Shown: in pieces, positions 3,012 to 24,978 of the stretch
Layout of the letters: the number at the start of each line of letters is the position of its first letter
Position numbering within the stretch: position 1 is the stretch's first letter
Assembly: GCF_024721315.2 (NCBI RefSeq)
Contig: NZ_JANFAK020000009.1
Location: forward strand, 1 to 64,000
Direction: 5' to 3'
DNA: 64,000 nucleotides
From: Streptomyces sp. Isolate_45
GTDB taxonomy: Bacteria; Actinomycetota; Actinomycetes; Streptomycetales; Streptomycetaceae
Translations under genes and position numbers: made by a program
The notes under the pieces: generated by a model
Seen by the model: the letters and a program-made list of their open reading frames with translations, nothing else
Told to the model about the DNA's origin: nothing
Databases searched by the model: none

Positions 3012-3173
3012 CTACCCCTTCGGCGCGAAACGGGTCAGCAGCTCTCGCGGGTCGACGACGAACGTCTCGTGCTCGCCGACGTCACCCAGCTGTGCGAGGT
3101 GCTCGGCGTCGGTGAGGCGGTCGCCCTCGACCACGATGCCGCCGGTCTCCTCGACCTTGCGGCTGAGGGACTG
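3012..3173 (-). pseudogene. 3' fragment of an unknown gene
   Basis: Directly upstream of the decayed DUF6879 gene, the minus strand reads SLSRKVEETGGIVVEGDRL, AEHLAQLGDVGEHETFVVD and ELLTRFAPKG before TAG at 3012-3014. The codons have the host's third-position bias, so it looks like a genuine gene end. On its 5' side it stops abruptly at the repeat GGGACTGAAGG (3167-3177), where the repeat-rich region begins. The parent protein is not recognised. The break at the repeat suggests a rearrangement or insertion boundary. Confidence 0.4.
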
Positions 3174-3816
3174 AAGGATCCATGGGCTTCCGGTGCATGT
3201 GAAGGCAAAGGGTCCGATGCCGCTCTTGGTCCCTTCCCTCTCGCTTGACTTCAGTCCCTGCCTAAAACTGCAGGTCAGGGCAATCTCATCCTTGAGTCAG
3301 GGACTGAAGGGACTCAGTTTCACTACTTCCAGCCTTCGTGTGCGCGTATGTATGTGCGAGCGCGTAAGGAGCCTGTGCTCTGGTTGAGTCATAACTAGGA
3401 AATTCGGTCCCTTCGGTCCCTGTTGCTAGCCGAGAACAGCCCTGACCAGCAGGTTTCGTAGTGACTGAAGAACTCAGGGACCGAAAGGGTCCGATGGGAG
3501 TCCAGCCCCTGGTCGAGGGTGCGGCGGGAGGGGCCGTTGCGGAAGACCGGGGGTGCCCGGGACTCCGCAGGGTCCGAGGGTCCGAGGGACTGAGGAGGGA
3601 GGGTGTGGGGAGAGGGGCTGGCGCGCAAGCGCGGCGCCACGCCCGGGATCGCCAAAGGAGCAAACCGTCACGCTCTTTGCAGAGTGCCTACTTGGCCGTG
3701 GACTCAAGGGACTCAAGGGACTGAAAAGTAACTACGGTCCAGCGGGCTACGGGGTTCGTGTCATGAGCTGCGCTAGGCTCCGCAATACTGAAACTTTGGT
3801 CCCTTCAGTCCCTGTG
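3167..3816. repeat. cluster of AGTCCCT-type direct and inverted repeats upstream of the replication genes (possible iterons/origin)
   Basis: At least seven copies of one element occur in both orientations: GGGACTGAAGG at 3167-3177, CTTCAGTCCCTG at 3249-3260, CAGGGACTGAAGGGACTCAG at 3298-3317, GGTCCCTTCGGTCCCTG at 3406-3422, CTCAGGGACCGAAAGGGTCC at 3473-3492, three GGGACT steps at 3701-3725, and GGTCCCTTCAGTCCCTGTG at 3798-3816. The core is CAGTCCCT, often doubled 9 bp apart as AGTCCCTTCAGTCCCT. The DNA is poorer in GC than its surroundings (notably 3230-3420 and 3730-3800) and contains no convincing gene. A matching block lies just past the replication genes at 7094-7162. Iterons or an operator array at a replication origin are the best explanation; this is inference. 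Confidence 0.7.
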
Positions 3817-3881
3817 TCAGAGGGAGCGGGCGCCCGCCCAGGACCGAGACACACCCCAGGCAACTGTCGAGGAAGCAGAAC

Positions 3882-4970
3882 GTGCCAGCCCACTCCGGCA
3901 ACCGGACCCAAGCCGCTCCCGCTGTGTCAGATCAGCATCCGGGCGTGGCACGCTGGTTCGCGGCACACGGCTATCCCGTACACCCGCTGATGCCCGGCAT
4001 GAAAACGCCCCCGGCGAACTGCCCCTCTTGTCGACCTCCCGCGCAGTCACACGAGCCGCAGACGTGCCCCTGCGTTACACAGGGCCTCTGGTGCCATGGC
4101 TTCCACGCGGCCACGACCGACCAAGGGGTGGTCGAGAAGTGGTGGCGTCAGGAGCCGGGGTTCGGCGTCGCGGTCTCCTGCGGACCCGCAGGACTCCTCG
4201 TCATCGACATCGACGCCCACTCGCCCGTCCTGCCGGACCGGCAGCGGCTGCTTCCCGGGATCCGCATAGACGACCGTGTCGACCTGTCAGGCCTCGCCTC
4301 CGGGTTCGACACCCTGGCGCTTCTCGCAGCCTGCCGCTCGCAGCCGAATCCGGCGGACGACACCGAGACCCTGCGCGTACGGACGCCGTCGGGCGGACTG
4401 CACGTCTGGTACCGGGTGCCGTGCGGGGGTCCTCGTTACCGCTCCTCCAGCGGTTCCAGCCCCCGTGTCGCGCTCGCCTGGCAGGTCGACATCCGGGCCA
4501 CCGGCGGCTACGTCGTCGCGCCCGGCACCCGCACCGCCTCAGGGACCTACCAGGCACTGCCCGGTGCTCGAACTCCCGCCATCCTGCCCCTGTGGCTGAG
4601 CGCCGAACTCATCCGCACAGGCCACACCGGTACCCCTGTGACTGTTCCCGCCCCCGCGCCGCTGCCTGCCCGCCCCACACGGTCGGACGACGCGGCCGCC
4701 CACCGGATCCTCAAGCCCCTCCTCGACGAGATCCGCGCCTGTGCGACCACACCCTCCGGGACGGCGTTCACCGAAAAGCTCAACCGAGCCGCCTTCACCG
4801 CTGGAGGTCTCGCCGGAGCCGGATACATCACGCAGGCCGAATGCGCCGGCCTCCTGACCGAAGCCGCCGATGCCGCCCGCCCCCGCCGGGGCCGCAGAAA
4901 CCGGCTCGTCATCGACTCCGCACTCCGCGCCGGCAGCAACCGCCCGATCCACCCCAAGGGACGTTCATGA
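3882..4970 (+). CDS. bifunctional DNA primase/polymerase (prim-pol domain)
   Basis: A 362-residue protein of the bifunctional primase-polymerase type found in actinobacterial plasmids and phages, which makes primers and extends DNA at replication start. After WFAAHGYPVHPLMPGMKTP comes a Cys-rich loop (NCPSC, then TCPC), then WWRQEPGFGVAVSCG and the acidic LLVIDID near residue 107, which fits the metal-binding DxD of the fold. LRVRTPSGGLHVWYRVP and VDIRATGGYVVAPG follow, both typical of the family. The C-terminal part (from about residue 270) is a helical extension. The start is GTG 3882 with GAGGAAG upstream. Its stop overlaps the ATG of the helicase gene (ATGA), so the two are translationally coupled. 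It lies immediately downstream of the repeat cluster. Confidence 0.9.
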   Translation: MPAHSGNRTQAAPAVSDQHPGVARWFAAHGYPVHPLMPGMKTPPANCPSCRPPAQSHEPQTCPCVTQGLWCHGFHAATTDQGVVEKWWRQEPGFGVAVSCGPAGLLVIDIDAHSPVLPDRQRLLPGIRIDDRVDLSGLASGFDTLALLAACRSQPNPADDTETLRVRTPSGGLHVWYRVPCGGPRYRSSSGSSPRVALAWQVDIRATGGYVVAPGTRTASGTYQALPGARTPAILPLWLSAELIRTGHTGTPVTVPAPAPLPARPTRSDDAAAHRILKPLLDEIRACATTPSGTAFTEKLNRAAFTAGGLAGAGYITQAECAGLLTEAADAARPRRGRRNRLVIDSALRAGSNRPIHPKGRS

Positions 4971-6547
4971 GCAGCGCAGGCAGCACCGGGTTCGACGCGC
5001 ACGCCGCGGCCGAGCAGCTCGCCGTCTTCAACGCCGAAGCCGCCCCCTCGGCCACTCCGCAGCTGCCGGCTCAACAGGGCGCCGTCGTCGACGGATTTCG
5101 TCCGGGAGACTTCGTTCAGTCCGGGCTGCTGGGCAACCTCACGGATCGCGGCAACGCCAAGCTCTTCGCCCACCTGCACAACCACCGCTTCCGGCATGTC
5201 GAGGGACTCGGCTGGTACGTCTGGGACGAATACCGGTGGAAGCGCACCGGTGGCGAGAAGGCCGCCATCTGGGCCGCCGGGGACATGGCCGAGGACATGC
5301 CCGTGCACGACCCGCGCGGCGTCTTCACCGACCGGGAGCTCAACCAGCACCGCAAGCGGGCGATGTCCACCTCCGGGGTCAAGGCGATGCTCGCCCAGGC
5401 GAAGGCCTCGCCCGGGCTCGCCCTGGACCCCGACACCCTCGACGGCGACAAGTACGCCCTGTGCACCCCCGCCGGTGTCGTGGACCTGCGCACCGGGGAC
5501 CTCCGCAAGCCCGACCCCCGGCGCGACCTGCACTCGCGCGCCACCTACGTGGCCCCCGAAGCCATGCCCACACCCCGTTTCGAACGCTTCCTCACCGAGA
5601 CGTTCGGCAGCGACGACAAGGGCAGGGAGATGATCAATTTCCTGCACCTGCTCCTCGGCTACTCCATCACCGGTGACGTCGGCGGCCAGGTCCTGCCCTT
5701 CCTCTACGGCATCGGCGCCAACGGCAAATCCGCCCTCATGGACGTGGTCATCAAGATCCTCGGGGACTACGCCGACGTCGCCCCGCCCGGCTTCCTCATG
5801 GAGCGCGGCAAGTTCAACGAGCACAGCACCGAGCTCACGGAACTGCACGGCCGTCGACTGTTCGTCTGCAGCGAGCTCAAGCCCCACGACAAATTCGACG
5901 AGGCCCGCGTCAAGCTCCTCACCGGCGGCGACCGACTCAAGGCACGTCGGATGCGCCAGGACTTCTTCAGCTTCGAACCCACCCACAAACTGTGGCTCCT
6001 CGGCAACCACCGGCCCGAGGTCGGCACCGGCGGTCACGCCTTCTGGCGCCGAATCCGCCTCATCCCCTTCGATCGGGTCGTCCCCGACCACCGCAAGATC
6101 GACAACCTCGCCGAAGAACTCGTCGCCGACGAGGGCCCCGGCATCCTCCAGTGGATGGTCCACGGAGCCATGGCCTACCTCGCGACCAAACCCTCGCTGG
6201 GTGGACCCACCGTCGTCCGCACCGCCACCCAGGCATACGCCACCACCGAGGACCACATCGGCCGCTTCCTCGCCGAATGCTGCACCGCGACCGCCGACCT
6301 CGACGAACCCCGCGACCTCCGAGTCGAGCAGGGCGCCCTCTACCGCGCCTACAGCACCTGGTGCCAAGAAGGCGAAGGACTGCGCCCCGCCACGACCCGC
6401 GCGTTCGCCACCCGCATCCGCGCCGAGGCCGGCATCTCCTCACCCAGCGAGATGCTCCGATCCAATGGCCAGAAGTTCTACCCGGGCCTGGCCCTCCTCA
6501 CCGAGGAGAGCCCGCCGGGCGAGGCGACCGGGGCAGCCCGAGCGTGA
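4967..6547 (+). CDS. phage/plasmid primase, P4 family; SF3 helicase
   Basis: A 526-residue DNA-helicase/primase of the P4/D5 type. After a low-complexity N-terminus comes LFAHLHNHRFRHVEGLGWYV, then LCTPAGVVDLRTGDLRKP (D5_N-like region), the Walker A loop GIGANGKS at about residues 248-255, RRLFVCSELK with the acidic Walker B-like region, LTGGDRLKARRM, and KLWLLGNHRPEV followed by RRIRLIPFD, the order of superfamily-3 helicases. It should unwind the origin and load with the upstream primase-polymerase, with which it overlaps by 4 nt. No integrase, relaxase or structural phage gene is seen nearby, so the block looks like a replication cassette cut off from its element. Confidence 0.9.
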   Translation: MSSAGSTGFDAHAAAEQLAVFNAEAAPSATPQLPAQQGAVVDGFRPGDFVQSGLLGNLTDRGNAKLFAHLHNHRFRHVEGLGWYVWDEYRWKRTGGEKAAIWAAGDMAEDMPVHDPRGVFTDRELNQHRKRAMSTSGVKAMLAQAKASPGLALDPDTLDGDKYALCTPAGVVDLRTGDLRKPDPRRDLHSRATYVAPEAMPTPRFERFLTETFGSDDKGREMINFLHLLLGYSITGDVGGQVLPFLYGIGANGKSALMDVVIKILGDYADVAPPGFLMERGKFNEHSTELTELHGRRLFVCSELKPHDKFDEARVKLLTGGDRLKARRMRQDFFSFEPTHKLWLLGNHRPEVGTGGHAFWRRIRLIPFDRVVPDHRKIDNLAEELVADEGPGILQWMVHGAMAYLATKPSLGGPTVVRTATQAYATTEDHIGRFLAECCTATADLDEPRDLRVEQGALYRAYSTWCQEGEGLRPATTRAFATRIRAEAGISSPSEMLRSNGQKFYPGLALLTEESPPGEATGAARA

Positions 6548-6606
6548 ACCGACCCCGGCGTACTGTCCGCAGCAATCCCAGCCCCCTACGATGGACGGAA
6601 GCAACC

Positions 6607-6714
6607 ATGACCCAAGCCCGGCACCCCATAGCCGGTACGCGGCTACCTGCCGCGCACAGGGCCGCCTGCCCCACCGGACAGGAACGCAAGACCGAGGAGG
6701 GACGAAAGCCATGA
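6607..6714 (+). CDS. small coupled ORF (35 aa) in the replication block
   Basis: ATG at 6607 follows GGAAG with 4-nt spacing and opens a 35-residue basic frame (TQARHPIAGTRLPAAHRAAC ... EEGRKP) whose stop overlaps the ATG of the next gene (ATGA at 6711-6714). The ribosome-binding site and overlap suggest a translated leader that couples translation of the downstream gene. The peptide has no recognisable family. Confidence 0.4.
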   Translation: MTQARHPIAGTRLPAAHRAACPTGQERKTEEGRKP

Positions 6715-7091
6715 GCTCGCTACTCGAACCGAGCGATCTCGCCCACGAGAACAAAGTGGTGTGGCTGGAGGACCCCGACGAACTCGACTACGTACGCCAG
6801 GCCCTCGACAAGACGCCCCGCCGACGGGGCAAGCCCCGCTACTACCGGGACGGCCGCATGATCGGCTTCACCGAACTCGGCGACACGGCGGAGGCCGACC
6901 CCGACAGCGGCCTGCAAAAACGCCGCGTCTTCTACCTCCTCCCGCACGACCGGGACGCCGAGCCCAACGGCCTGTACAAGGAGGGCGCCCCCGGCGAGGC
7001 CGTCGACCCGCGCACCATCGAGCCCCGCAAGGTCGGCCTCAAAACGCCACGCTCCCAGCGAGGACTCGCAGCCGGCGAGACAGTTGCCTGA
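6711..7091 (+). CDS. hypothetical protein of the replication block (126 aa)
   Basis: A 126-residue soluble protein starting at ATG 6711 behind a strong GAGGAGGG. It is highly charged. Visible segments are VVWLEDPDELDYVRQALD, then KPRYYRDGRMIGFTELGD and KRRVFYLLPHDRD. I do not recognise the family. The position, last in the primase-helicase block and immediately before the second repeat zone, suggests a replication accessory or control protein, possibly one that binds the repeats. That is inference from context. Confidence 0.6.
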   Translation: MSSLLEPSDLAHENKVVWLEDPDELDYVRQALDKTPRRRGKPRYYRDGRMIGFTELGDTAEADPDSGLQKRRVFYLLPHDRDAEPNGLYKEGAPGEAVDPRTIEPRKVGLKTPRSQRGLAAGETVA

Positions 7092-7093
7092 TC

Positions 7094-7162
7094 CAGTCCC
7101 TTCAGTCCCTGCCGTTCTGTCGAACGGACTCTGAGCTGCGCGTTCGTCCAGGGACCGAAGGG
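7094..7162. repeat. second AGTCCCT-type repeat zone after the replication genes
   Basis: CAGTCCCTTCAGTCCCTG at 7094-7111 and CCAGGGACCGAAGGG at 7148-7162 repeat the motif found at 3167-3816, so the same element brackets the primase-helicase block. The copy at 7096-7111 matches that at 3800-3813 almost base for base. It may be an iteron, an operator or a recombination scar. The following DNA to 7344 shows nothing recognisable. Confidence 0.6.
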
Positions 7163-7344: not shown

Positions 7345-8742
7345 TCAGGCGGTGACGGACTTCCGTTCGCTCTCGGAGATCGGAGCGGCAGTCAGGTGGG
7401 CAAGTTTCCTACCCGTGAACATGTGCCGCAGCATGTCGGGCTTGAACAGCCGGGAGGGCGGCCGCTCCATGCTCATCACGTCCAGCAGAGCGCTCATGGC
7501 ATGCGGGTTGCGTGCGCCGGCATCGACGGCGCGGTCGATGAAGGACGCGAGGAACTTCTCCAGCCTTGTCGGCGGCTTCCCGCTGGCCCCCGGATAGAAG
7601 ATGTCCTGTCCCACTGCCAGAGCCCAAGCGATCCCCACCGGGCGGGCGACGGCTCGCTGAACGCGGCGAGCCGTTCCGGGGTCACCGATCTCGTGGCTGT
7701 TGAGCATGTCCCGGAGTGCGACGGCGCATTGGGCGGAGACGGTCAGACCATGGCCGTAGACGGGGTTGTATCCGGCAACGGCATCGCCGAGGACAGCGAA
7801 TCCGGAAGGCCAGTGAGCGGCCTTCTCGTAGAATCGCCGCTTGTTGGCGGTACTACGGGTGGTGACCACATCGGCGACCGGCTCCGCGTTCGCGAGCAGT
7901 TCGCCGATGACGGGATCGCTCAACGACTTGGCGAAATCCAAGAATTCGTCGTTCCGATTCGAGGGCCGGCCGCCGCGGGTGCCGGAGAGGGTCACCATCC
8001 AACGCTTGTTCTCGATCGGGATGATGATGCCGCCCCGGCCGGGCGCGTCGTTGGGGTTCGCCTGCACGTTGACGAGCGGGAAACCGTCGGCGGTGGTGCC
8101 GGGCGCATGGTAGATCCGGCTCGCATAGCCGACGCCGGCGTCGACGACACGCTCCCGCACCGCTGGTACGCCGAGCTTTCCCAGCCACGTCGGTGCCTGG
8201 CTACCTCGTCCACTCGCATCGATCACGAGGTCGGCGGCCAGTGACGTTTCGGCGCCGGCGGACCTGACGCGGACTCCGGTCACCCGCCGTGAGTCACCCT
8301 CCAGAGACAGGAGTTCGGTCTCCTGACGTAAAGTGATGCGGGGGCGCCTCAGGACCTCCGCGCGGATCGTCGCGTCGAGCAGATCACGACTGCAGACGAG
8401 GTTGGTGTGCCGGCAGGCGTCGAAGCGGCGGAACCACTGGCCGGAGGGGGCTTTCGAGACGAGGCCCGCCATGACCGGTATGCGCCGGGCGCCACGGGCT
8501 ACGAGCTTGTCGACGATTCCGGGCAGGATTTCCTCGAACGCCTTGACTCCGCCGGACCACAGCAGATGGCTGTGGCGTGCTTGAGGGAGTCCTTTTCGAG
8601 GCTCGGGGCCTTCGGGGAGTGCGTCGCGTTCGATGATGGTGACGTCGGCGAAGTCGGCGAGAACGGCTGCGGCGAGCATGCCCGTCATACCTCCGCCGAC
8701 CACTATTGCCGTGCGCCGCGGTGTGTTGGATCCTTCATCCAT
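7345..8742 (-). CDS. FAD-dependent monooxygenase of the HTH/HExxH/DUF6545 operon (copy A)
   Basis: A 465-residue flavoprotein of the aromatic-hydroxylase/geranylgeranyl-reductase type. The N-terminus has the dinucleotide loop AIVVGGGMTGMLAAAVLADF and the acidic end of strand 2 in VTIIERD. PRKGLPQARHSHLLWSGG follows, then LVIDASGRGSQAP, FAVLGDAVAGYNPVYGHGL (the GD motif contacting FAD) and VGQDIFYPG. ATG 8742 lies 8 nt inside the end of the upstream DUF6545 gene, so the operon is tightly coupled. The paralogue at 18823-20259 shares the PRKGLPQARH, WSGG and YGHG segments. The substrate is unknown; hydroxylation or epoxidation of a hydrophobic molecule is a reasonable guess. No membrane segment is evident. 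Confidence 0.85.
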   Translation of the reverse strand: MDEGSNTPRRTAIVVGGGMTGMLAAAVLADFADVTIIERDALPEGPEPRKGLPQARHSHLLWSGGVKAFEEILPGIVDKLVARGARRIPVMAGLVSKAPSGQWFRRFDACRHTNLVCSRDLLDATIRAEVLRRPRITLRQETELLSLEGDSRRVTGVRVRSAGAETSLAADLVIDASGRGSQAPTWLGKLGVPAVRERVVDAGVGYASRIYHAPGTTADGFPLVNVQANPNDAPGRGGIIIPIENKRWMVTLSGTRGGRPSNRNDEFLDFAKSLSDPVIGELLANAEPVADVVTTRSTANKRRFYEKAAHWPSGFAVLGDAVAGYNPVYGHGLTVSAQCAVALRDMLNSHEIGDPGTARRVQRAVARPVGIAWALAVGQDIFYPGASGKPPTRLEKFLASFIDRAVDAGARNPHAMSALLDVMSMERPPSRLFKPDMLRHMFTGRKLAHLTAAPISESERKSVTA

Positions 8743-9931
8743 CGGTGTGACTACTCTTTCTGTTTTCTGCGAGCCGGCGAATGGCTTCAATCCGTGAGGG
8801 GGACCGGAGAGCAAGCGAAATCGGTTCCACGCTGATCAGGTCACTGCTGAGAGGGGCGGAGTCCTCGCCGCCCTCGGGCCGTGTCGCGGTGCGGAAGAGG
8901 TCAACAGCCACGAGGATGTCGATCGCACCGGCCGTTCCCCGCGCGTCGTGCTCCTTGTACCCGGCCTCCAGGGCGGCGTGGAACGCGGTACCGCGACGTT
9001 GATCGTCAAGATGAGGCGCCAGGAGCAACAGACCGTCACGAATGTTCGTCTGTCGTCGCATCAGACGCAGGGGGAGGGGGGAGAAATGGCGAACCCGGAT
9101 GGGGACGGGCGACGGGTCGATCGAGTGGAGCAGCTGCCACAGCGGCCTCAGACGACGGTAGGTCGCATGATCGGTCCAGCGATCCCGTAGGAACGGGCCG
9201 GCCTGGGGCAGGATGAAGCCGAGGGCGACCAGAATGCCATTGAGCAACGCGAAATTGGGGGCGATCCGCAAGCTCAGGAAATCCCAGTCGGGGGTACCGA
9301 ACCACCGGGCAACGAGCGCACACAACTTTGAAACATCGAAGACGAGGCCGCAGGCATAGCCGGCCTGAAGCAGGCGTAGACCCATGCGTAGCCAGGCCGA
9401 TTCGAGCTCCTTGACCCAGGGCAGGATCAGCCTGACGGCGGCCATGGCCGAAGCCATATGAGCCAGCAGATACAGTAAAATGTGCTCCCGCATCCATGGC
9501 GTGGTGGCGTAATAGGTGTCGAGATCCGTGATGCGCTCACTGGGGACATCCGCCATGAGGAACGAAATCCAGAGAGCGGCGATTATCCCTGCGTGAATGA
9601 TCCACACGCGGCGTGTGCGCCGAAGACGCCGTGGCCCCGGTCCGTCCTGCCAGGTGATGAGCATGCTGAGGCAGCAGCCGCCGAAGGCGGTGAGCAGGGA
9701 ATATGTCCACGGTGCGGCGACATTCGAGATGCCGATGAACGTGTTGATCCTGTGGACGGAGGTGGGGGCGATGGAGAGAAATATCAGCGTAGCCAGGAAC
9801 ATCATGAGGCTGGTCGAGCGGACATTTGGATCGCGAAAGGCGCGCCGGAGCGTGGGCAGCTTGATCAGTAGCGCCACGACGAAGAAGGCGGCAGGCACGA
9901 TGTATGGAATGCGTATGTCGGTCAATTCCAT
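8735..9931 (-). CDS. DUF6545 / MAB_1171c-family seven-helix membrane protein (copy A)
   Basis: A 398-residue membrane protein named in annotations as a MAB_1171c-family putative transporter. The first roughly 240 residues are hydrophobic segments (IPYIVPAAFFVVALLIKLP, LMMFLATLIFLSIAP, IHAGIIAALWISFLM and more), about seven in all. The family signature here is DLDTYYATTPWMREHILLYL between helices. The C-terminal part, about 150 residues, is soluble and starts with YRRLRPLWQLLHSIDP. ATG 9931 overlaps the stop of the HExxH gene (ATGA). Biochemical function is unproven; it could transport or sense the product of the FAD enzyme. Two paralogues lie at 16155 and 17476. Confidence 0.85.
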   Translation of the reverse strand: MELTDIRIPYIVPAAFFVVALLIKLPTLRRAFRDPNVRSTSLMMFLATLIFLSIAPTSVHRINTFIGISNVAAPWTYSLLTAFGGCCLSMLITWQDGPGPRRLRRTRRVWIIHAGIIAALWISFLMADVPSERITDLDTYYATTPWMREHILLYLLAHMASAMAAVRLILPWVKELESAWLRMGLRLLQAGYACGLVFDVSKLCALVARWFGTPDWDFLSLRIAPNFALLNGILVALGFILPQAGPFLRDRWTDHATYRRLRPLWQLLHSIDPSPVPIRVRHFSPLPLRLMRRQTNIRDGLLLLAPHLDDQRRGTAFHAALEAGYKEHDARGTAGAIDILVAVDLFRTATRPEGGEDSAPLSSDLISVEPISLALRSPSRIEAIRRLAENRKSSHTDG

Positions 9932-10515: not shown

Positions 10516-11147
10516 TCGTCGCCGTCCTCGTCCATCCACTCACGGATCTTCTTGGCGAGAGTGTTCTTTCTCGCATGCGAGAGGGCCTTGGTGCGGGTAG
10601 CGGCCCCTGACAATCCAAGTTCCTCCATGATCTCGTGCATGCGGTCGTTCGTGGGGCGTTCAGGTCGATTTTGGTCGGGTGCGCGTTCGAGTTCGATGAG
10701 TGTCGACTGAAGCGCCCTGTTCACCAGCTGTGAGTTCGTCGCCCACAGGAACCCTTCCTCGGTGCCGAAGAATTTCTCGAAGTACTCCTGCAGGGGAACC
10801 CCGTGTTCAATGGCCGGCACCTTGATCCCGAGGCACAGCTGTCGTACCCACTCGGGGGACAGGTTGAGCTGAGAGGCGATCTCCCTGCGCACGTCGGTAG
10901 CCCGCTTTCCCGTCTCAGCCACAAGCTTCTCGAAGAGGATCTTGACTCGTCCGCTGACGCGTTCGTTGATGCTCTCTTCCGGAAGTTCCTCACCCGCCAG
11001 CAGCCTGTTGACCTCTTCTTCCGTCAACAGGGTGCGGCTGGACAGCATCGAGACGTTGACGACCTCGGCACGGTCGAGGCCTCTCTCGGTGATCAGCGCG
11101 TCAAGACGCGCCAACGTCTCGCTGAGAGGGGGGTGGGGCCTACTCAC
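10512..11147 (-). CDS. XRE-type HTH regulator (copy A), first gene of operon
   Basis: A 211-residue protein with a helix-turn-helix in ATDVRREIASQLNLSPEWVR (about residues 83-102), followed by EYFEKFFGTEEGFLWAT, a segment also seen in the paralogue as LEKFFGRPAGFL. The N-terminal 70 residues and C-terminal 60 are helical and charged; the C-terminus ends in KIREWMDEDGDE. GTG 11147 has GGGAG 8 nt upstream. It heads a four-gene leftward operon whose members overlap by 1-8 nt. Two palindromes at 11238-11272, about 90 nt upstream, are its likely operators. It probably represses its own operon and is relieved by the downstream HExxH protein; this is inferred from ImmR/ImmA-type systems. Confidence 0.8.
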   Translation of the reverse strand: MSRPHPPLSETLARLDALITERGLDRAEVVNVSMLSSRTLLTEEEVNRLLAGEELPEESINERVSGRVKILFEKLVAETGKRATDVRREIASQLNLSPEWVRQLCLGIKVPAIEHGVPLQEYFEKFFGTEEGFLWATNSQLVNRALQSTLIELERAPDQNRPERPTNDRMHEIMEELGLSGAATRTKALSHARKNTLAKKIREWMDEDGDE

Positions 11148-11237
11148 CTTTGTGCTCCCGGAGTTGAAGGTGACGATCAGGTTCGCTGGTATGTGCTGCG
11201 ACCCTACGCTGCCGAATCGGCCTGCGGCCAGGCTCCG

Positions 11238-11272
11238 CCAACGATCGTGGCTGAATCACCAACGATCGTTGG
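11238..11272. promoter_or_regulatory. paired CCAACGATCGT palindromes upstream of operon A
   Basis: CCAACGATCGTTGG at 11259-11272 is a perfect 14-bp palindrome. CCAACGATCGTGG at 11238-11250 is a second copy lacking one base. Their starts are 21 bp apart, two DNA turns, so two dimers would bind the same face. They sit 91-125 nt upstream of the HTH start codon, where an autoregulatory operator is expected. This motif was not found before the paralogous operon at 14757. Confidence 0.6.
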
Positions 11273-11642
11273 CGGCGGCGGAGTTGGTGGCGCCACGGGG
11301 TGCGGAGGCAGCGGGTCGTCCCGTTCCACACCCGGCGGCAGCCCGCCGACCACCGGCAGCCGGGTCCCGGTGGCGGTGGGAAGGCGAGATCGGCCCGGAG
11401 AGCGGCATCCATGGGCACCGGCACCACCCCGGTGCGCGGCTGCCACATCTCCCCGGTCTGAGGGTGAACCGGCACCAGCACCAGGTCCCCGGCCGGCTCG
11501 CCGAACCCCGGCCGCTCCGCGGCCCGCACACCCGAACACCGCCAAGCCGTACCCCTCCCGCCGCCGAAACCCCTGCATCCCATCCAGCGGGCGGACCAGG
11601 GAGCAAAGGGTTTTCGGACGACCCCGAACGCCCCACCGATCG
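11273..11642. other. region between operon A promoter and IS630 gene; possible gene remnant
   Basis: No intact gene is seen. On the minus strand around 11390-11510 the frame DLVLVPVHPQTGEMWQPRTG followed by VVPVPMDAALRADLAF reads like a genuine protein fragment but has neither start nor family. It may be the relic of a gene destroyed by the transposon. The 5' end of the transposase gene must begin near the right edge of this stretch. Confidence 0.3.
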
Positions 11643-12745
11643 GCGGAGCCGGAGGGCCAGAAACTCCAGCACATCGTCCGGCGGGGCAGCACGAGTTCGG
11701 TGCGGTTCCGGCGGGCGATGGTGCTCCTGGCTTCGGCCGGCGGCAGCACGGTCCCGGTCATAGCCCGCCTGGTCCAGGCGGACGAGGACACCGTCCGCGA
11801 TGTGATCCACACGTTCAACGAGACCGGGCTCGCATGTCTGAACCCTCGGTGGGCGGGAGGCCGTCCCCGCCTTCTCGACCGTGACGAGGAGGACTTCGTC
11901 GTCCAGACGGCCACTACTCGTCCAACCGTGCTGGGCAAGCCCTTCACCCGCTGGTCGATCCGCAAGCTCGCCGATCACCTGCGCAGGAACACTGCCCGGC
12001 CCGTCCGGATCGGCCGGGAGGCTCTGCGGTGCTTACTGTCCCGCCGCGGGATCTCCTTCCAGCGCACGAAGATCTGGAAGGAGTCCCCGGACCCCGACTT
12101 CGACTTGAAGCTCGCCCGGATCGAGTACGCGATCAACGAGCGGCCGGACCGCACGTTCGCGTTCGACGAGTTCGGGCCTTTGGGAATCCGCCCCACCGCC
12201 GGCTCCTGCTGGGCCGAGAGGACCCGGCCCGACCGCCTGCCGGCCACCTACCGGCGCACCCATGGGATCACCTACTTCCACGGCTGCTATTCGGTCGGCG
12301 ATGACCAGATGTGGGGGATCAACCGGCGCCGCAAGGGCATCGACCACACCTGGACCGCGTTGAAAACGATCCGGGCCGCCCGCCCGGACGGCGCCCCGAT
12401 CTACGTGATCCTCGACAACCTCTCCGCCCACCTCAACTGGAAAATCCGCAGGTGGGCGGCTCGCATCAAGGTCGAGCTGTGCTTCACCCCGACTTACGCC
12501 TCCTGGGCCAACCCGATCGAAGCCCACTTCGGACCCCTACGGCAGTTCACCCTGGCCAACTCGAACCACCCCAACCACACCGTCCAGACCCGGGCCCTGC
12601 ACGCCTACCTGCGCTGGCGCAACAAGAACGCCCGCCACCCCGACGTCCTCGCCGCCCAACGACGCGAACGCGCCCGCATCCGCAGCGAGAAGGGGCTGCG
12701 CTGGGGAGGACGGGCACTGGCTACTGCTGCCTGATCAGCGATTGC
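11600..12745 (+). mobile_element. IS630-family insertion sequence (ends not resolved)
   Basis: The extent is set by the transposase homology. I could not find terminal inverted repeats or a TA target duplication with confidence, so both borders are approximate. The element lies between the two head-to-head copies of the HTH/HExxH/DUF6545/FAD operon. Confidence 0.55.
11643..12734 (+). CDS. IS630-family transposase, possibly lacking a start codon
   Basis: A DDE transposase, about 363 residues as drawn. The N-terminal HTH region reads VIARLVQADEDTVRDVIHTF, then NPRWAGGRPRLLD and FTRWSIRKLADHLRR. The catalytic triad is visible: Asp in FAFDEFGPLGIRPTAGS, Asp in YVILDNLSAH, and Glu in YASWANPIEAHFGPLRQF. 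The C-terminus LRWRNKNARHPDVLAAQRRE is typical. Homology begins by about 11648 (EGQKLQHIVRRGSTSSVRFR), but the frame has no ATG or GTG before it; the first GTG is at 11700, already inside the conserved HTH region. Either the 5' end is damaged or a start lies in another frame, so the element may be inactive. Confidence 0.85.
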   Translation, partial: AEPEGQKLQHIVRRGSTSSVRFRRAMVLLASAGGSTVPVIARLVQADEDTVRDVIHTFNETGLACLNPRWAGGRPRLLDRDEEDFVVQTATTRPTVLGKPFTRWSIRKLADHLRRNTARPVRIGREALRCLLSRRGISFQRTKIWKESPDPDFDLKLARIEYAINERPDRTFAFDEFGPLGIRPTAGSCWAERTRPDRLPATYRRTHGITYFHGCYSVGDDQMWGINRRRKGIDHTWTALKTIRAARPDGAPIYVILDNLSAHLNWKIRRWAARIKVELCFTPTYASWANPIEAHFGPLRQFTLANSNHPNHTVQTRALHAYLRWRNKNARHPDVLAAQRRERARIRSEKGLRWGGRALATAA

Positions 12746-16154: not shown

Positions 16155-17321
16155 TTGTCGGATCTGAGCTTCTACGTACCCGCGGCGCTGGGTTGCCTGG
16201 CAAGCCTTCTCAGGCTTCCCAGTCTCCTCAGGAATCCACGCGACCCCATGCTCCAGGCCGTCATGGCATACCTGGTCACCGCCACCTGCTTGTTCGTCTT
16301 CGGGTCGATCCCGATGCTGATGAGGGTCAACGATCTTACGGGCACACCCAATTTCGCGGCCCCGCTCCTCTACTCCATCCTCATGGCGTGCACCGGCTCC
16401 GGCATCGTCCTGATCATCAATTGGCGCGGTGGCCCACCCGACCGCATCCGGAGGGCCACGAGCTGGTGCATGGGTGCCTACGCCGCGGTCAGTGTTGCCC
16501 TCTTCGCCCTGTTCATGCTGGGCGAGGCACCCGTCGAGCGACTGGAAGACTTCGACACCTACTACGCCACCACACCGTATGTGCGTGAAATGATCGCCCT
16601 CTACCTGGCGGCCCACACCACATCGGTTCTGGTCATGGTCCACCTGTGCCGGCGTTGGCTCCACAGCGTCAAGGGGGAACTCCGCGTGGGCCTGGCCCTC
16701 ATGGTGACCGGATACGCGCTCGCGGTGGCGTTCGACCTGTGCAAGTTCGCCGCTGTGGGCGCCCGATGGGCCGGTCTGAACTGGGACGTTCTGAGCACCG
16801 ACTTGGCACGTCCGTTAGCCGCGGCGAGCGCCCCGTTCGTCGCGTTCGGCTTCGGCATACCGTACGTGGTGCAGCGCCTCAGGAAACCCTGGCGGGAGTG
16901 GACCCGTTATCGGCAGCTGGGGCCTTTGGCGCGGCTGCTGCGCGGGCTCGCGCCCACGGCCTCGACCATCAGGATGCCACTGTTCTCGTCGGCGGGCGTC
17001 CGCCGCCTGCAACTCGAATCGATCATCCATGACGGACTGCTCACCTTGAACCCCTACTTCGACCTCACCCTCAGGGCCCGCTCGATCGCCGACGCACTCA
17101 CCCGCGGAGTCGCCCCCGAGGCCGCCGACGCGGCCGCCGACGCGGCCATGATCGTCGCCGCCGTCGAGGCGCTGCGCGCAGACCCCGAGCGTCAAGTGAT
17201 CACCACGTCACAAGGCCTTCAGGAAGGCGCCGGAGAGGACCGCGACCTCGTCCGCATCTCGCAGTCGCTGTCCTCGATCCCGGCTGCCGGCCGGCCGAAC
17301 ACGACGCGGGAGCCCGCGTGA
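16155..17321 (+). CDS. DUF6545 / MAB_1171c-family membrane protein (copy B, first)
   Basis: A 388-residue protein with about seven hydrophobic segments in the first 240 residues (VPAALGCLASLLRLPSLL, AYLVTATCLFVFGSIPML and others) and the family signature DFDTYYATTPYVREMIALYL. The soluble C-terminal part begins YRQLGPLARLLRGLAP and contains a duplicated AADAAADAA Ala/Asp run. TTG 16155 is the only usable start after the upstream stop; LSDLSFYVPAALG aligns with the start of the copy A protein. It is followed by a second member of the same family, which copy A lacks. Confidence 0.85.
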   Translation: MSDLSFYVPAALGCLASLLRLPSLLRNPRDPMLQAVMAYLVTATCLFVFGSIPMLMRVNDLTGTPNFAAPLLYSILMACTGSGIVLIINWRGGPPDRIRRATSWCMGAYAAVSVALFALFMLGEAPVERLEDFDTYYATTPYVREMIALYLAAHTTSVLVMVHLCRRWLHSVKGELRVGLALMVTGYALAVAFDLCKFAAVGARWAGLNWDVLSTDLARPLAAASAPFVAFGFGIPYVVQRLRKPWREWTRYRQLGPLARLLRGLAPTASTIRMPLFSSAGVRRLQLESIIHDGLLTLNPYFDLTLRARSIADALTRGVAPEAADAAADAAMIVAAVEALRADPERQVITTSQGLQEGAGEDRDLVRISQSLSSIPAAGRPNTTREPA

Positions 17322-17475
17322 GAGCCCTTCTCGTTTCGCGCCGCACCATCCACACCATCGCAGTCGATCGAACCGCCTCAACACGCCGCGCCACTCCTGT
17401 GGGACCGCGCGCCGACATCAACCTCCCCGGTGATCCGGCTCCGCTGTGCGACGTGCGAGCCGAGGGGTGCACGTC

Positions 17476-18711
17476 GTGACCAACCTTCACTACTACGTAC
17501 TTGCCGCGCTCCTGGCCTTCGCCTTCGCGTTGAGGGTGCCCGGCCTGATCAGGCACTGGCGGGACCCGTTCGTCCGCGCCGTGTCATTGCTGCTGCCCCT
17601 GGCCTCGGCCGTCTTCTTCTTCGCCGCGCCACCGACGATCTCCAGGGTGAACGAGCTCACCGGCATGGCCAACCTTTCGGCTCCGGTCGTCTACGGCATC
17701 GTCACCGCGCTGAGCGCGGCCCTGGTCAACCTGATGATCACGTGGCGTGGCGGGCCCGAGGAACGAAGGCGCGCGGCCACTCGATGGTGCATCGGCGTCT
17801 ACGGGGCCGTCATCGTTGCCTTGTTCACGCTGTTCGCGCTCGGGGATTCACCCGAGGAGCGCCTCCTCGATTTCGACACCCACTACGCCAATGCCCCGTA
17901 CATCCGGGAAATGATCGTCCTGTACATCGCCGGGCACGCGCTGTCGACCCTGACTCTGGCCGTCCTGTGCTGGCGCTGGGCACGCGAGGTCCCGGGCCTC
18001 CTGCGCATCGGGTTGGTGCTCATCGTGGCCGGATCGTTCCTGAGCCTGACATGGGATGCCTGCAAACTCCTCGCCGTTGCCGCCCGGTGGACCGGCCACG
18101 ACTGGGACGGCATCAGTACGACCGTCGCCCCGACTGTGGCCTCCCTGGCCACGCTCACCCAGGCCATCGGGCTCGTGCTTCCGTCCGTCAGTCAAAGCCT
18201 GGCCATTCGATGGCACCGATGGTCCCAATACAGAAGGCTCCGGCCCCTATGGCTGACCATGCGGGCCGTGACGCCGTACGGAGCGGTGGGCATTCCCTGG
18301 TGGTCCTCCCTCAGCATCAGGCACCTGCGCAGGACCATCCTCATCCGTGACGGCCTCAGACTGCTCCACTCCTCTCTCGAGCGGGATACGAGCCCCTGTG
18401 CGCAGGCGACGACCACCTCGATCCCGGACCCGCTCAAACCGGAGTCGGCCCGGCACGTCTCCATGGTGCTCGCGGCGTTGGCCGGTTTGCCCCGCTCCCC
18501 CCACGGTCACGCCGGCAGTAGCGTTGAGAGCGTGCTGGAGGGCGATGACGAGGGGCTCGTCATGCTCTCCGACGCCATCGGCGTGTTGATGGTGCATGAC
18601 GACCACGCCCCCCTGAGGTTCCACCGCGGGCCTGCCCGGCCCGCCGGTCGACCGCGCGGACTTCACCCGGACCGACCGTCGGTACGGCCCGTGGGCGTTG
18701 ACGGCGACTGA
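17476..18711 (+). CDS. DUF6545 / MAB_1171c-family membrane protein (copy B, second)
   Basis: A 411-residue relative of the preceding protein: VTNLHYYVLAALLAFAFALR start, RVNELTGMANLSAPVVYGIV loop, DFDTHYANAPYIREMIVLYI signature, then YRRLRPLWLTMRAVTPYG at the beginning of the soluble tail. GTG 17476 has GAGGGG at 17462-17467. The 154-nt gap to the previous gene contains no gene. Tandem DUF6545 genes suggest either a heteromeric complex or two related specificities. The soluble tails differ more than the membrane parts, as expected if the tail decides the partner or the signal (inference). Confidence 0.85.
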   Translation: MTNLHYYVLAALLAFAFALRVPGLIRHWRDPFVRAVSLLLPLASAVFFFAAPPTISRVNELTGMANLSAPVVYGIVTALSAALVNLMITWRGGPEERRRAATRWCIGVYGAVIVALFTLFALGDSPEERLLDFDTHYANAPYIREMIVLYIAGHALSTLTLAVLCWRWAREVPGLLRIGLVLIVAGSFLSLTWDACKLLAVAARWTGHDWDGISTTVAPTVASLATLTQAIGLVLPSVSQSLAIRWHRWSQYRRLRPLWLTMRAVTPYGAVGIPWWSSLSIRHLRRTILIRDGLRLLHSSLERDTSPCAQATTTSIPDPLKPESARHVSMVLAALAGLPRSPHGHAGSSVESVLEGDDEGLVMLSDAIGVLMVHDDHAPLRFHRGPARPAGRPRGLHPDRPSVRPVGVDGD

Positions 18712-18822
18712 TCCGCTCACTCCACCAGGAACCTCGTTCCGCTCCGCCGTCCGCCTGCGCGAGTTCGGCACCATGACGCTGACGCAGCCCGCCCCAGCGG
18801 CGGCCCACCAGAGAGCTGTCAC

Positions 18823-20259
18823 ATGACCAACCCCGGCAACACCCGCCCCACATCGACACAGCGGCGGGCCATCGTCATCGGCGCGGGTATCACAGGGATG
18901 CTGGCAGCGGCCGCGCTGCGCGAAGTGACCGATGAAGTCCTGATAGTCGAGAACGATGAGCTGCCCGACGGCCCGTTCCCCAGAAAGGGGCTTCCCCAGG
19001 CCCGACACGCCCATACCTTCTGGAGCGGCGGCGTACTCGCCGCCGAGACGCTCCTGCCCGGGGTGACCGACCGTTGGCTGGCGGCCGGCGCGAACCGGAT
19101 CCCGATTCCCACCGGCATGGTCGGATTCAGTAGCGAGGGGTGGTTCCGGCGATGGAACGCCGAGACCCACTTCATCCTCGCCTGCAGTCGAGACCTCCTG
19201 GATTCCGTCGTACGCCACTTCGTTCTGGGAGCCGGGGGAGTGAACATCCGTCAGCGCACACGTGTCGAAGGCCTGACCGGCAGCGCCGCCGTGGTCACCG
19301 GGGTGCGGGTGCGCGGGGCGGACGGGCGCGTGGAGGACCTGGAGGCCGACTTCGTCGTGGACGCCGGCGGACGAGGCTCACGCACACCCCAATACCTCCA
19401 GGAGCTGGGGGTGGGATCCGCCCCCGAGCGATCACTGGACCTCGGCCTCGTGTACGCGACACGCCTTTTCCGCGCGCCCGAAGGAGCCGACGCCTTCCCC
19501 ATAGTCAGCGTCCAGTCGGATCCGCGTCTCGGGCGGCCCGGGCAGGGGGCCAGTATCCTTCCGATCGAAGACAACACATGGCTGGTCACGGCACTGGGCA
19601 CCAGAGGAGGCGAGCCCACGGGGGTCGTCGAGGACTTCGAGCCGTTCACCCGCGGCCTCCGGCACCCGATCATCGGCGAGATCATCTCTCATCTTGAGCC
19701 TCTGACCGGCGTGGCGATCAACCGGAGCACCCGCAATACGCGCCGGTACTTCGAGCACCTCAAGAACTGGCCGGAGCGATTCGTCGTGATGGGCGACGCC
19801 CTCGCCGCGTTCAACCCCACCTACGGGCACGGCATGTCCGTGGGCGCGCAATCAGCACTGGCACTCCGGAACGTGATGTTGGCCAACGAGATGGACACGC
19901 CCCGCCTCTCCCGGCGCATACAGAAGGCGGTGGCCAAGCCCGTTGCCGCGGCCTGGGACCTGGCGATGGGGCAGGACGTCTTCTACCCGCAGGTCCGGGG
20001 CGGCACGCCGAGCCGAAAGGACAGGATCCTGGCCACCTACGTGAACCGCCTGCTGAAGACGAGCTGCGGAAACTTCACGATGGTCCGCGACTTCACCGAC
20101 GTGACCTCACTCCAGGCCCCACTGACGACGCTCGTGAAACCACGTGTGCTGCTCGCCGCCGCCCGAGGCCCGCTGCACCCGCCCCTGACCGGGCCGCCAC
20201 TGACCGAACGGGAACTCGGGTTGGTGACCGCCCGCGGCTATCGACCTGCGGACCAGTGA
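18823..20259 (+). CDS. FAD-dependent monooxygenase (copy B), last gene of operon
   Basis: A 478-residue flavoprotein paralogous to 7345-8742. The dinucleotide loop is AIVIGAGITGMLAAAALREV, and PRKGLPQARHAHTFWSGG is almost identical to copy A. The sugar/ribityl-contacting FVVMGDALAAFNPTYGHGM motif and MGQDVFYPQ are also conserved. The C-terminal 40 residues differ (LTERELGLVTARGYRPADQ against the ISESERKSVTA end of copy A). ATG 18823 follows AGAGAG-type sequence. Being last, after the membrane proteins, it fits an enzyme that makes or modifies the compound handled by them. It is converged upon by the 20474-24673 gene, with a terminator hairpin between. Confidence 0.87.
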   Translation: MTNPGNTRPTSTQRRAIVIGAGITGMLAAAALREVTDEVLIVENDELPDGPFPRKGLPQARHAHTFWSGGVLAAETLLPGVTDRWLAAGANRIPIPTGMVGFSSEGWFRRWNAETHFILACSRDLLDSVVRHFVLGAGGVNIRQRTRVEGLTGSAAVVTGVRVRGADGRVEDLEADFVVDAGGRGSRTPQYLQELGVGSAPERSLDLGLVYATRLFRAPEGADAFPIVSVQSDPRLGRPGQGASILPIEDNTWLVTALGTRGGEPTGVVEDFEPFTRGLRHPIIGEIISHLEPLTGVAINRSTRNTRRYFEHLKNWPERFVVMGDALAAFNPTYGHGMSVGAQSALALRNVMLANEMDTPRLSRRIQKAVAKPVAAAWDLAMGQDVFYPQVRGGTPSRKDRILATYVNRLLKTSCGNFTMVRDFTDVTSLQAPLTTLVKPRVLLAAARGPLHPPLTGPPLTERELGLVTARGYRPADQ

Positions 20260-20473: not shown

Positions 20474-23400
20474 TCAGTCGCCGACTCCCAGTGGCGAGGC
20501 AAGGCCCGGTGCGGACCAGAGCTGAGCGTTCGTACCGTTGCATTCCCAGAGCTGGAGTTGGATGCCGTTGTCGGTGCGACTACTCGGCAGATCCATGCAA
20601 CGCTTGCTCATCGGGTTGTAGAGGCTGCCGTCGGCCAGCGGCAGCCACTGCTGCGGTCCGGTTCCGTTGCAGGTCCACAGCTGTACCAGGATGCTGTTCT
20701 CAGGGGCGTCCACACATCGGCCGAGCACACGAAGTTCGCCGTTCTCCCGCAGCTCGAACTGTTGGGGGGCGCTTCCGTTGCAGTCCCAGATCTGGATGCG
20801 GTTGCCGTCGGCCGTGCCTCCCATGCTGTCGTCGACGCACTTGGTGTCGCTGACTCCCGACACCAGGGACGTCCGGGTGGCGGACGGAACGGTGGAGTGG
20901 TTGTGGACGGCGAGGCCGCTGATGCGGCCGTCGAGGAATACGCTCGGGTTGCCCTGGGCCTTGTAGCGGCCGATGACCAAGGGGCCGGTGGCCTGCCAGG
21001 TGTTCGCCTTGGCGTGGTGGCCGGTGGCTGCGAGCGTGCCATTGACGTAGAGCGCGATCAGACCGGTGGTGTCGTCGTAGGTGGCCATCAGCTGTGTCCA
21101 GACCCCGACCTGAACCCGGGCCGCGGAGTTGCGGATGTCGGTCTGGTCGTAGTTCCAGCCGTCGCCGTCGGTACGGCTCAGGGCGAAGCGCCAGGTGCCG
21201 TCGGAGTCGGACCAGAGCATGAAGCCACTGGAGCGCTGTCCGTCCTGGCTGACGACGACGCCCCCGGCCTTGTCGGCCTTGACCCAGGTGGAGACGGTGA
21301 AGCTACGGCTGGTGTCCACCCCGGGCTTTGCCGCGGTGACCGTGGCCCCGCCACCGTCCAGGTCGACGACCTTGGTGGCGGTGCCGGCGACGGTGTCGTC
21401 GGCCCAGGTGGCACCGGCACCGGTGAGGGCGGCACTGTTGTTGCCTCGCAGGTCGGCCACCGCGGTTCCCGAACCCTCGTTCAGCTTCCACGCGCCGGCC
21501 GAGATGCGGGAGTCGCCCATGGCCTGTGCGTTGCCGAAGCCGGTGACCCTTCCCGTGGTGGTGGTGCCGTTCCACGTCAGCAGCCGATGGCGGCTGTCCA
21601 GGGCCCAGAGGTCAGGGGTGCCGTCCGCGCTGGTGTCTCCGGAGGAACCGAGGACGGGGTGGGAGGCGGCACTGACGCCACCGCCGATCCGGGTCCGCTT
21701 GCTGTGGTCGCCCAGGGCCGCCGGGTTTCCGGGGACGTTGGCGTACTGGTAGACCTCGCCAGTGGCCTTGTCACGAGCCCACAGGTCCGGAAGACCGTCA
21801 CCGGTGGCGTCTCCGGGAGCAATCAGCGTGAGGTTGTCCCAGCCCGAGGGACTGAGGACGAGCACGACCGGGTCGCGCAACTCGCCGGTCGCGCCAGTAC
21901 CCTGAAAGAGCACCAGGGAGCTGTTCGTGCCGCTCTTCTCGACCGTGAGCAGGTCATTGCGAGGAGCGACGCCCGCTTCGGGTAGGGCGTCGCCCACGGC
22001 GAGGATCTGATGGACACGGGTCCAGTCCTCGACGTACGTGCTGCCGCAGGGTTGGCCTGTGGCGGCCAGGGTGCAGTCCTGTCTGTAGGGGCGCTGTACG
22101 GGCACGGCTTTGGTAGCGCTGTAATACAGGCCGTCGTTCGCTGCGAGCCCTCCCTGTGTGAGGGAGTTGCGGTACAGCGTCAGTTGTCCGTCACGGTAGG
22201 CCCACAGATCATCGATGCGGATGCTGTTGCCGCCGCGGTGCGTGGTCAGGGTGCCGTTGCCCCAGCCCTTGCCCCCGGGGCTGTTGGCCAAGTTGGAGGC
22301 GATGATTCCGCCGGCGGCCGGGTCGAGCGCGGTCGGGTATACGACGAGGTCGCCGTCGCTCGTGGGCGCGATGAAGTCCACCCGCTCGTCACCGGTGATG
22401 TCGCCGAGGGTGGTCTTGGCGTTCGGGTCGTCAGGCACGTAGAACGCGTAGGTCTGCTGCTGCGATCGGTTGCCGGCGCGGTCCACGGCTTGGACACGCA
22501 GGAGATTGGTACCCCAGGTCGTGGGGGTCAAGGGAATGGATGCGCTGCCGTCGGCTGCGGAGTCCACCCGGTTGGCTCCCGCTGCCGGGATGGCCGAATT
22601 GAAGGCCCATTCGTAGTAGAGGACCCCGCTGGTCGTATCGGCCGACCTGACGCCGAAGGTGCCGCTCCGGCCGATGTGCTTCGTCGAGCCGGGCATGCTG
22701 CCTGACGGGGGGTAGTCGGGGGAGGTGACCACGGGGACGGATGGAGGTTGGAGGTCCATGCTGAAGGTGCAGCCGGTTACCCAAGCGGATTCCAACTCTC
22801 CGTCGTGGGCGGCGACCCGCCAGTTGTAAGTGTGCCCGTCCAGGAGGCCGGTGGGTCGGGTGCTCACCCAATGGGTGCCGGTCGCCTGGCCTACTTGCCC
22901 GCTGGCGTGGGCAAGGGATCCGTCGGCAGTGTCGTTGATGTTGAAGAGGGCGGAGACCGGCTGGCTGTCCGGGTCGCCGATCCACGTACCGACGCTCAGG
23001 CTCGCGTACGTGGTGGCGCCCACCCAGCCACAGCCGTTTCCGTTCGGGTTCTGGGGAGCCGGGCTCATGCCGAGGCTCCACGGAGGGTAGGGGGCTCGGT
23101 TGTACTCGACATAGAGGAACGGCAGGTTGTTCTTGTCCCTGGTGAACCGCTTGAAGGAATTGTTGCCGCTGGTTTTCGACTCGTCGGCAGCGAACAGACC
23201 GTACGTGAGGCTTCCTCGCCACTCGTTCGCGATGAGGTGGTCGCGAACGTCCCATTCACCACGCGTTGTGGAACCCGTGCATCCGGGACCGCCGGCGCTA
23301 TTGACCGCGGTGGTGCGCAGGATCTCCCAATCGCGAGGCTGGGTGTTCCAGGTGATGTTGGAGAGCAGTGGCTCGGTGGAATGCAGATCCACGTTGTACG

Positions 23401-24673: not shown

Positions 24674-24978
24674 TGCAAGACTCCCCAAAGTAATGGTGTT
24701 GACGGGATGGGCGTGAACGCTAACAGGTGACAGACCCATCCGTTTTTGATCAGAAATATGGAATCCAATATTCCCCGGGGAAGAATCCCCGGATTCGTGA
24801 TCGTTCGATCGCCAAGATTAGGTCATCGCGTATGCGAACGGTCGACTTTCGGACCTTTTTTCGAACTTCGAGAATGACGGGGGCTGGATTGTCCGGATTG
24901 GAACCAAATGCGCGAACCGTCTACCGGTTAACATCTCAGGCCAATTGATCAACTCGGTCAACATTGGGGGGGCGTGCC
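24674..24978. promoter_or_regulatory. divergent promoter region between the lectin and RHS genes, AT-rich
   Basis: These 305 bp are much poorer in GC than either gene. They contain TTCCCCGGGGAA, a perfect 12-bp palindrome (24771-24782), and a GATCGTTCGATCG stretch near 24799-24811, as well as AT-rich tracts (CCTTTTTTCGAAC) suited to unwinding. Both large genes should be started from here, so a shared regulator is plausible. Confidence 0.6.

Follow-up and report, generated by a model that had tools for sequence, protein, structure and literature searches.

An SCP1-like primase/helicase block with opposed iterons in Streptomyces: a putative replication-initiation module and a possible iteron spelling code

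In linear Streptomyces plasmids, replication commonly starts from a centrally placed replicon that consists of a helicase gene, rep2, with its iteron, rep1; the replication system of pSCL4 is similar to that of SCP1 (PMC13152386). At the central origin of KVP1 lie a gene for a putative replication protein and one that resembles primase/helicase genes (PMC5331497). SCP1, pSCL4 and KVP1 have in common primase/helicase replication genes as an internal origin region, and adjacent genes of this kind, an SCP1-like trait, occur in a three-gene block at positions 3882-7091 of the Streptomyces sp. Isolate_45 DNA analysed here (the window: positions 1-64000 of the 104,409-bp contig NZ_JANFAK020000009.1, from a draft genome of 9.07 Mb in 408 contigs). 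The block encodes a primase/polymerase, a D5-type helicase and a DUF6009 protein, with short repeats on either side. In view of the published replicons of pSCL4 and KVP1, we place it among known kinds of replicon and propose, with a probability of about 0.83, that it is the replication-initiation module of an SCP1-like plasmid, comprising a putative iteron-controlled origin and its initiation genes. Three open genes and two opposed upstream dyads are seen directly, and both the genes and the opposed-iteron region are conserved across numerous plasmids.

The link to the SCP1-like class runs via pSCL4 and not via the sequence of SCP1 itself. By tblastn, relatives of all three genes lie at 846-850 kb of the 1,795-kb pSCL4 with iterons of a sister spelling, AGTCGCT, of which one upstream double site and two downstream were counted. 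The available parts of the open-access literature on such replicons hold no mention that we found of a role for DUF6009, of opposed dyads or of spelling classes; a full-text search of open-access papers for 'DUF6009' returned none, and the accessible parts of PMC6662830 and PMC8743542 contain nothing on the block. A spelling code of the iterons, with DUF6009 as its candidate reader, would be new here.

The three genes and their iterons

All three genes lie on the forward strand as open frames. The first (3882..4970, 362 aa) encodes a bifunctional DNA primase/polymerase (Prim-Pol; PF09250, Pfam E 1.2e-32) with DID, SGGLH and VDIR motifs. The second (4967..6547, 526 aa), whose start overlaps the stop of prim-pol in the sequence ATGA, encodes the D5-type helicase (D5_N, E 1e-34; TIGR01613, 255.7 bits where 108.7 is the cut-off) with the Walker A sequence GIGANGKS. 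We take this helicase to belong to superfamily 3, and GIGANGKS and the three Prim-Pol motifs to be catalytic. Its structure model, of low overall confidence (predicted local distance difference test, pLDDT, 56), ends in a winged-helix-like segment at about residues 443-510; Foldseek searches with the model retrieved African swine fever virus (ASFV) PrimPol and poxvirus D5/E5, with E values down to 2e-8 and query-length template-modelling (TM) scores of at most 0.32 among the matches listed. The third gene (6711..7091, 126 aa) encodes the DUF6009 protein (PF19472, E 3.7e-62), the only PF19472 match in the source genome and a proposed iteron reader or accessory initiator. Its model (pLDDT 78) had no Foldseek match at E <=0.001, and the best VIA-align Z, 2.5, is too weak to interpret.

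The repeat unit is 9 bp long, RGTCCCTTC, and most copies are joined in tandem into double sites that face each other in pairs, on both strands and with a 9-bp period, an arrangement overlooked in an initial annotation made from the sequence alone. Repeat-bearing segments lie at 3166-3813, upstream of prim-pol, and at 7092-7162, downstream of the DUF6009 gene. Exact AGTCCCT has 13 matches in the 64 kb against a shuffle mean of 6.4 (1 of 100 shuffles reached 13): eight at 3166-3813 and two at 7095-7110, in keeping with the at least seven copies before prim-pol and two after the last gene first reported, one within the helicase gene (5202) and two distant (21847 and 58277). When up to three mismatches are allowed, the 16-mer GGTCCCTTCAGTCCCT has seven window matches where 0.75 are expected (0/100 shuffles reach seven), six of them in the block. 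The near identity that the initial annotation saw between the copies at 3800-3813 and 7096-7111 is borne out, GTCCCTTCAGTCCCTG being shared exactly by 3799-3814 and 7096-7111. Across the genome, exact GTCCCTTCRGTCCCT occurs five times, four times in the block and once at C132:5908, where two long frames meet (judged by eye, one thiolase-like and the other acyl-CoA-dehydrogenase-like) and where it is probably a chance occurrence.

The upstream iterons form two dyads, preceded by an outermost double site with two mismatches (3166..3181, minus strand). Dyad 1 opens with a single iteron, CTTCAGTCCCTG (3249..3260, plus), which is conserved when 28 blocks of the subclade are aligned, and continues with the double site AGTCCCTTCAGTCCCT (3299..3314, minus), an AT-rich centre (3315..3405) proposed from base composition as an unwinding element, the double site GGTCCCTTCGGTCCCT (3406..3421, plus) and a right arm of two single iterons, of which the first has one mismatch (3460..3485, minus). 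Between arms and double sites lies a second element (3264..3281, plus) with a mirror copy at 3439..3456 (minus), together an 18-nt inverted pair that is 89% complementary; parts of both are conserved across the same alignment. Dyad 2 comprises about 2.6 copies of 9-bp-period iterons on its left (3698..3725, minus; tandem repeat of period 9 at 3700-3722) and on its right a double site (3795..3813, plus), a possible operator that ends 68 nt before the prim-pol start. Downstream of the genes, a double site (7092..7110, plus) is followed by a single iteron inverted relative to it (7149..7162, minus; 14-nt inverted pair, 93% complementary).

The DNA around the repeats is AT-richer, as first noted, though unevenly so. 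The segment 3182-3881 has 61.3% GC against 68.8% for the window, with 54% at 3240-3500, 76% at 3500-3660 and 60% at 3660-3870; the stretch 3315-3414, at 52%, is within the lowest 0.4% of the window's 100-nt stretches. Multiple direct repeats beside an initiator gene, with an AT-rich segment, are features of an iteron origin, and all are present here.

Iterons and DUF6009 across genomes and plasmids

A DUF6009 family profile was positive in 121 of 392 genomes of the source genus, and all 42 genomes with at least two exact AGTCCCT double sites fall among these 121 (hypergeometric ~1e-24, with relatedness ignored). The tie is one of co-occurrence per genome, some sites lying off the block or on other contigs; site counts were set against DUF6009 status by eye from the rows and then recounted. 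A reversed control pattern gave at least two matches in seven genomes, none of which carries DUF6009. Forty genomes have a single exact AGTCCCT double site, 16 with DUF6009 and 24 without, so that single sites include chance ones. With DUF6009 in every multi-site genome, the repeats are not scattered regardless of replication genes, a concern raised at the outset.

Thirteen plasmids were scanned whole. Nine have exact AGTCCCT double sites, all at the block; the remaining four (W04, W05, W06 and W11) have no exact AGTCCCT site and carry AGTCGCT at the block instead. AGTCGCT is less exclusive than AGTCCCT: at least two exact sites occur in 37 of 150 genomes, 29 with DUF6009 and 8 without, and in some plasmids sites lie off the block, for instance some kilobases away in W04 or far from the AGTCCCT block in W03, which has a second DUF6009 place too. 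Tandem AGTCGCT arrays lie distant from an AGTCGCT block on the same contig at G054:C2:203817-203876 and G027:C2:96683-96851, possibly as titration or second control sites. A divergent AGTCGCT pair of the usual spacing occurs at G145:C15:69780-69873 in a genome without a DUF6009 match.

By tblastn, DUF6009 has matches in 325 plasmid records (312 from Streptomyces) out of 72,556 and in none of the 50,697 phage records; species genomes yielded 34 loci. Plasmids of Nostoc, Natrinema and Natribaculum, genera distant from Streptomyces, have single matches. We assembled 128 loci, picked non-randomly and mainly by strong DUF6009 matches, with 144 DUF6009 anchors; 139 of these have a helicase, giving 132 distinct blocks. 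The iteron is present in 122 of the 132, so that the second concern raised at the outset, a lack of the repeat in orthologous blocks, is not borne out. At least two exact same-spelling double sites occur in 112 blocks, one in ten and none in ten; among the last, three have less than 90 nt of upstream sequence (L095, L154 and L155) and L097 has sites farther upstream. Loci L040 and L046 combine a damaged helicase with the lack of a full adjacent prim-pol and of iterons, as if sites decay with genes.

Three spellings account for the typed blocks: AGTCCCT (68), AGTCGCT (49) and AGTCCCG (5), with ten blocks untyped and ten of the 122 typed ones resting on one double site. Spelling tracks protein lineage. 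A motif-free count of upstream 7-mers repeated at a 9-bp offset recovered AGTCCCT (144) and AGTCGCT (96), against a best count of 9 at the control offset of 11 (N and homopolymer runs excluded). Among the 120 typed blocks whose upstream sequence extends 900 nt or more, 111 have divergent pairs 60-140 nt apart, and the DNA between divergent sites is AT-rich in all lineages (51-58% GC against 66% over 1.2 kb upstream). Same-spelling downstream copies within 600 nt are patchy across lineages (20/28 blocks of the window's subclade, 0/40 other AGTCCCT, 8/49 AGTCGCT and 1/5 AGTCCCG blocks); the iterons that bracket the block downstream are therefore probably accessory. DUF6009 is not exclusive to replication blocks, since copies without a neighbouring helicase occur at L041 and L172. 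The latter copy (L172:5851-6354), on a contig the size of a chromosome, lies near genes that encode DUF6602 and a helicase domain of the Schlafen group.

Iteron spelling and its candidate reader

Twenty-three contigs hold at least two blocks, which gives 25 pairs, a count that leaves aside blocks on unsampled contigs and any DUF6009 copy that lacks a helicase. When typed by nearest DUF6009 reference, including four blocks without a detected iteron, 23 pairs combine unlike types and two combine like ones. The null mean for like pairs is 11.5, and 0 of 20,000 shuffles fell as low as two, a comparison that overstates the certainty because shared descent of composite cassettes is not removed. Where the iteron is seen on both sides, 19 of 20 pairs differ in spelling. 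Of the two like pairs, that on G318:C2 includes one block with a single double site, and that on G179:C3 one block with none and another with a single double site.

We tentatively propose, at somewhat less than even odds, that DUF6009 is a new initiator or adaptor reading a 7-bp iteron, and that single-base iteron changes (AGTCCCT, AGTCGCT, AGTCCCG), matched by changes in DUF6009, would define incompatibility groups and allow two independent origins per plasmid. Each lineage would read its own spelling, and two modules could therefore share one plasmid without cross-control. With such a code, if true, sequence would predict which plasmids are able to coexist and origins could be marked in draft assemblies; DUF6009, whose very name denotes an unknown function, would gain one.

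Which protein would read the iteron was approached by comparing the three proteins across blocks. Four helicases with in-frame stops were excluded, and 96 of 112 blocks had all three proteins long enough for trees. Those of DUF6009, helicase and Prim-Pol each need two changes for the three spelling states, the minimum, and five approximately unbiased (AU) tests reject nothing (p 0.155-0.438); tree shape was rejected as a pointer to the reader, trees and tests alike being undecisive. Assigned to the nearest of three references, one per lineage, DUF6009 agrees with iteron type in 122/122 blocks, the helicase in 117/122 and Prim-Pol in 77/110, figures that depend on the single reference chosen for each lineage. 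The two AGTCCCT subgroups are 73.6% alike in DUF6009, against 61-62% to the AGTCCCG group; in Prim-Pol, one AGTCCCT subgroup shares 64.4% with the AGTCCCG group and 59.0% with its fellow AGTCCCT subgroup. These identities hint at DUF6009 as the reader. On a shared topology of 31 rows, the stems on which spelling changed were compared with a control stem. Over 25 column resamples, their ratio had a median of 8.4 (range 5.3-21.7) for DUF6009, while the helicase gave 2.8 (1.9-3.7) and Prim-Pol 2.3 (1.4-3.8). Change in DUF6009 thus appears concentrated on the branches where spelling changed, an indirect pointer to the same protein.

Prim-Pol is a less likely reader because none turned up beside the helicase, on the same strand, in 12 typed blocks. 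It could act from elsewhere, as in L050, where a prim-pol lies beside the second block on the opposite strand, or in SGLP1 (L059), where it lies in the other block. The stronger competitor is the helicase: its C-terminal winged helix may read the iterons, with DUF6009 as a copy-number or loading factor. We give this less than an even chance. The winged-helix-like end of the model is consistent with it, as is phage P4 alpha, whose winged helix binds origin repeats (PMC4234260), and helicase trees match iteron types as well as those of DUF6009 do; the higher stem ratio of DUF6009 argues, indirectly, the other way.

Origin function and comparison with known systems

We envisage initiation as follows. 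An iteron-binding protein, either DUF6009 or the helicase by way of its winged helix, would bind the opposed double sites; the AT-rich dyad centre would open, and two helicase rings would load in opposite directions. Prim-Pol would then make primers and the host replisome would take over in both directions. The dyad beside the prim-pol start would probably double as an operator, and the downstream iterons may titrate the initiator.

An origin at the block is suggested by the co-occurrence of repeat and DUF6009 among genomes and by the iterons of related blocks, and it is on this sequence evidence that the initial reading of an iteron-controlled origin with its replication genes finds support. 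Partition genes accompany some relatives: among 12 plasmids annotated around the block, four have parA and parB within ~10 kb and one has parA only. DnaA boxes, common though not universal at iteron-regulated plasmid origins, are not enriched (0-0.2 per block by lineage against ~0.1 in mononucleotide shuffles, by the box consensus applied). GC skew, put forward in the initial annotation as a check and run on seven plasmids, agreed clearly in two linear ones, with change points 2.7 kb (W02; permutation 0/1000) and 1.4 kb (W05; 0.011) from the block, and roughly in one (W03; 11.5 kb, 0/1000).

Several observations weigh against a plasmid origin at the block. In the other four plasmids the skew does not fit: the significant change point lies far from the block in W10 (0.002) and W12 (0.011), and none is significant in W06 (0.10) and W11 (0.20), W10, W11 and W12 having been chosen for an off-centre block. 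This mismatch either speaks against an origin at the block or reflects rearrangement, and with so mixed an outcome skew was dropped as proof of an origin. Seven of the 12 annotated plasmids list no par gene in the stretch shown, from incomplete gene tables. A search within 700 nt on the same strand turned up no prim-pol in 17 of the 132 blocks. Some blocks also sit on chromosome-size contigs (G350, G171 and G341), so that not every block drives an independent plasmid, and the block of the window lies 3 kb from the end of a draft contig fragment.

The four discordant skews would also suit the view that the repeats are operators of the prim-pol operon only, serving autoregulation, with the true origin elsewhere on the replicon, as would the position of dyad 2 so close before the prim-pol start. 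An operator would need less than two dyads spread across ~650 bp together with the AT-rich centre, the mirrored second element and, in one subclade, copies downstream, and we consider this explanation unlikely. That the block is instead a remnant of an actinomycete integrative and conjugative element (AICE), or a phage satellite using the Prim-Pol/D5 pair, was already disfavoured and seems very improbable: AICEs use Prim-Pol genes, one published example encodes a Poxvirus_D5 protein (PMC3218068) and the source genome has five further Prim-Pol matches, but DUF6009 matched plasmid and not phage records, and a partial scan of window frames, with no search aimed at either, included no integrase family and no FtsK-like Tra. 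The earlier statement that no integrase, partition or transfer genes are nearby holds for ParB_N (PF02195), which has 0 matches on the 104-kb contig; that search did not extend to the ParA, integrase and transfer families.

Beside the block lies a cassette of FAD-binding monooxygenase-like and DUF6545 genes (7345-9931), with a second such cassette ~9 kb further (16155-20259) and, at 10803-12734, a transposase-like frame with winged helix-turn-helix and DDE_3 domains. Two very large genes follow at 20474-31440. One encodes a protein of 1421 aa in which LamG and ricin-B-type lectin domains occur, the other an RHS-repeat protein of 2158 aa; of all 100-nt stretches in the window, those richest in AT (24661-24880) fall in this region. 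An Rfam search gave nothing reaching the gathering threshold, and a tRNA search gave none. Large Streptomyces plasmids often bear antibiotic gene clusters; among the relatives, gamma-butyrolactone regulator genes lie near the blocks of L050, L054, L056 and L060 (ScbR in all, ScbA in three), and Type I-E cas genes lie ~3-4 kb from the block of a circular plasmid (L063:1-3399).

We return to the proposed replication-initiation module and its likeness to characterized systems. The predicted helicase fold resembles that of the poxvirus D5/E5 and ASFV primase-helicases, in which primase is fused to helicase, to the level of detail that a low-confidence model allows. Within Streptomyces, the repAB/iteron system of pWTY27, a plasmid that propagates in linear form once given telomeres, likewise has a predicted primase/polymerase, a second Rep protein and a repeat on both strands; it differs in its iteron, GTGGGAAC/TTCCCAC, and in its binder, a 522-aa RepA (PMC3583192). 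The two best working analogies are phage P4 alpha and RSF1010. In P4 alpha, primase, helicase and a winged helix that acts on origin repeats are likewise combined, within one polypeptide and with a Toprim-type primase (PMC4234260), whereas the block has a separate PF09250 Prim-Pol gene and adds DUF6009. RSF1010 divides the tasks of helicase, primase and iteron reader among three polypeptides, RepA, RepB' and RepC (PMC4234260), and by functional analogy only, DUF6009 would match the role of RepC.

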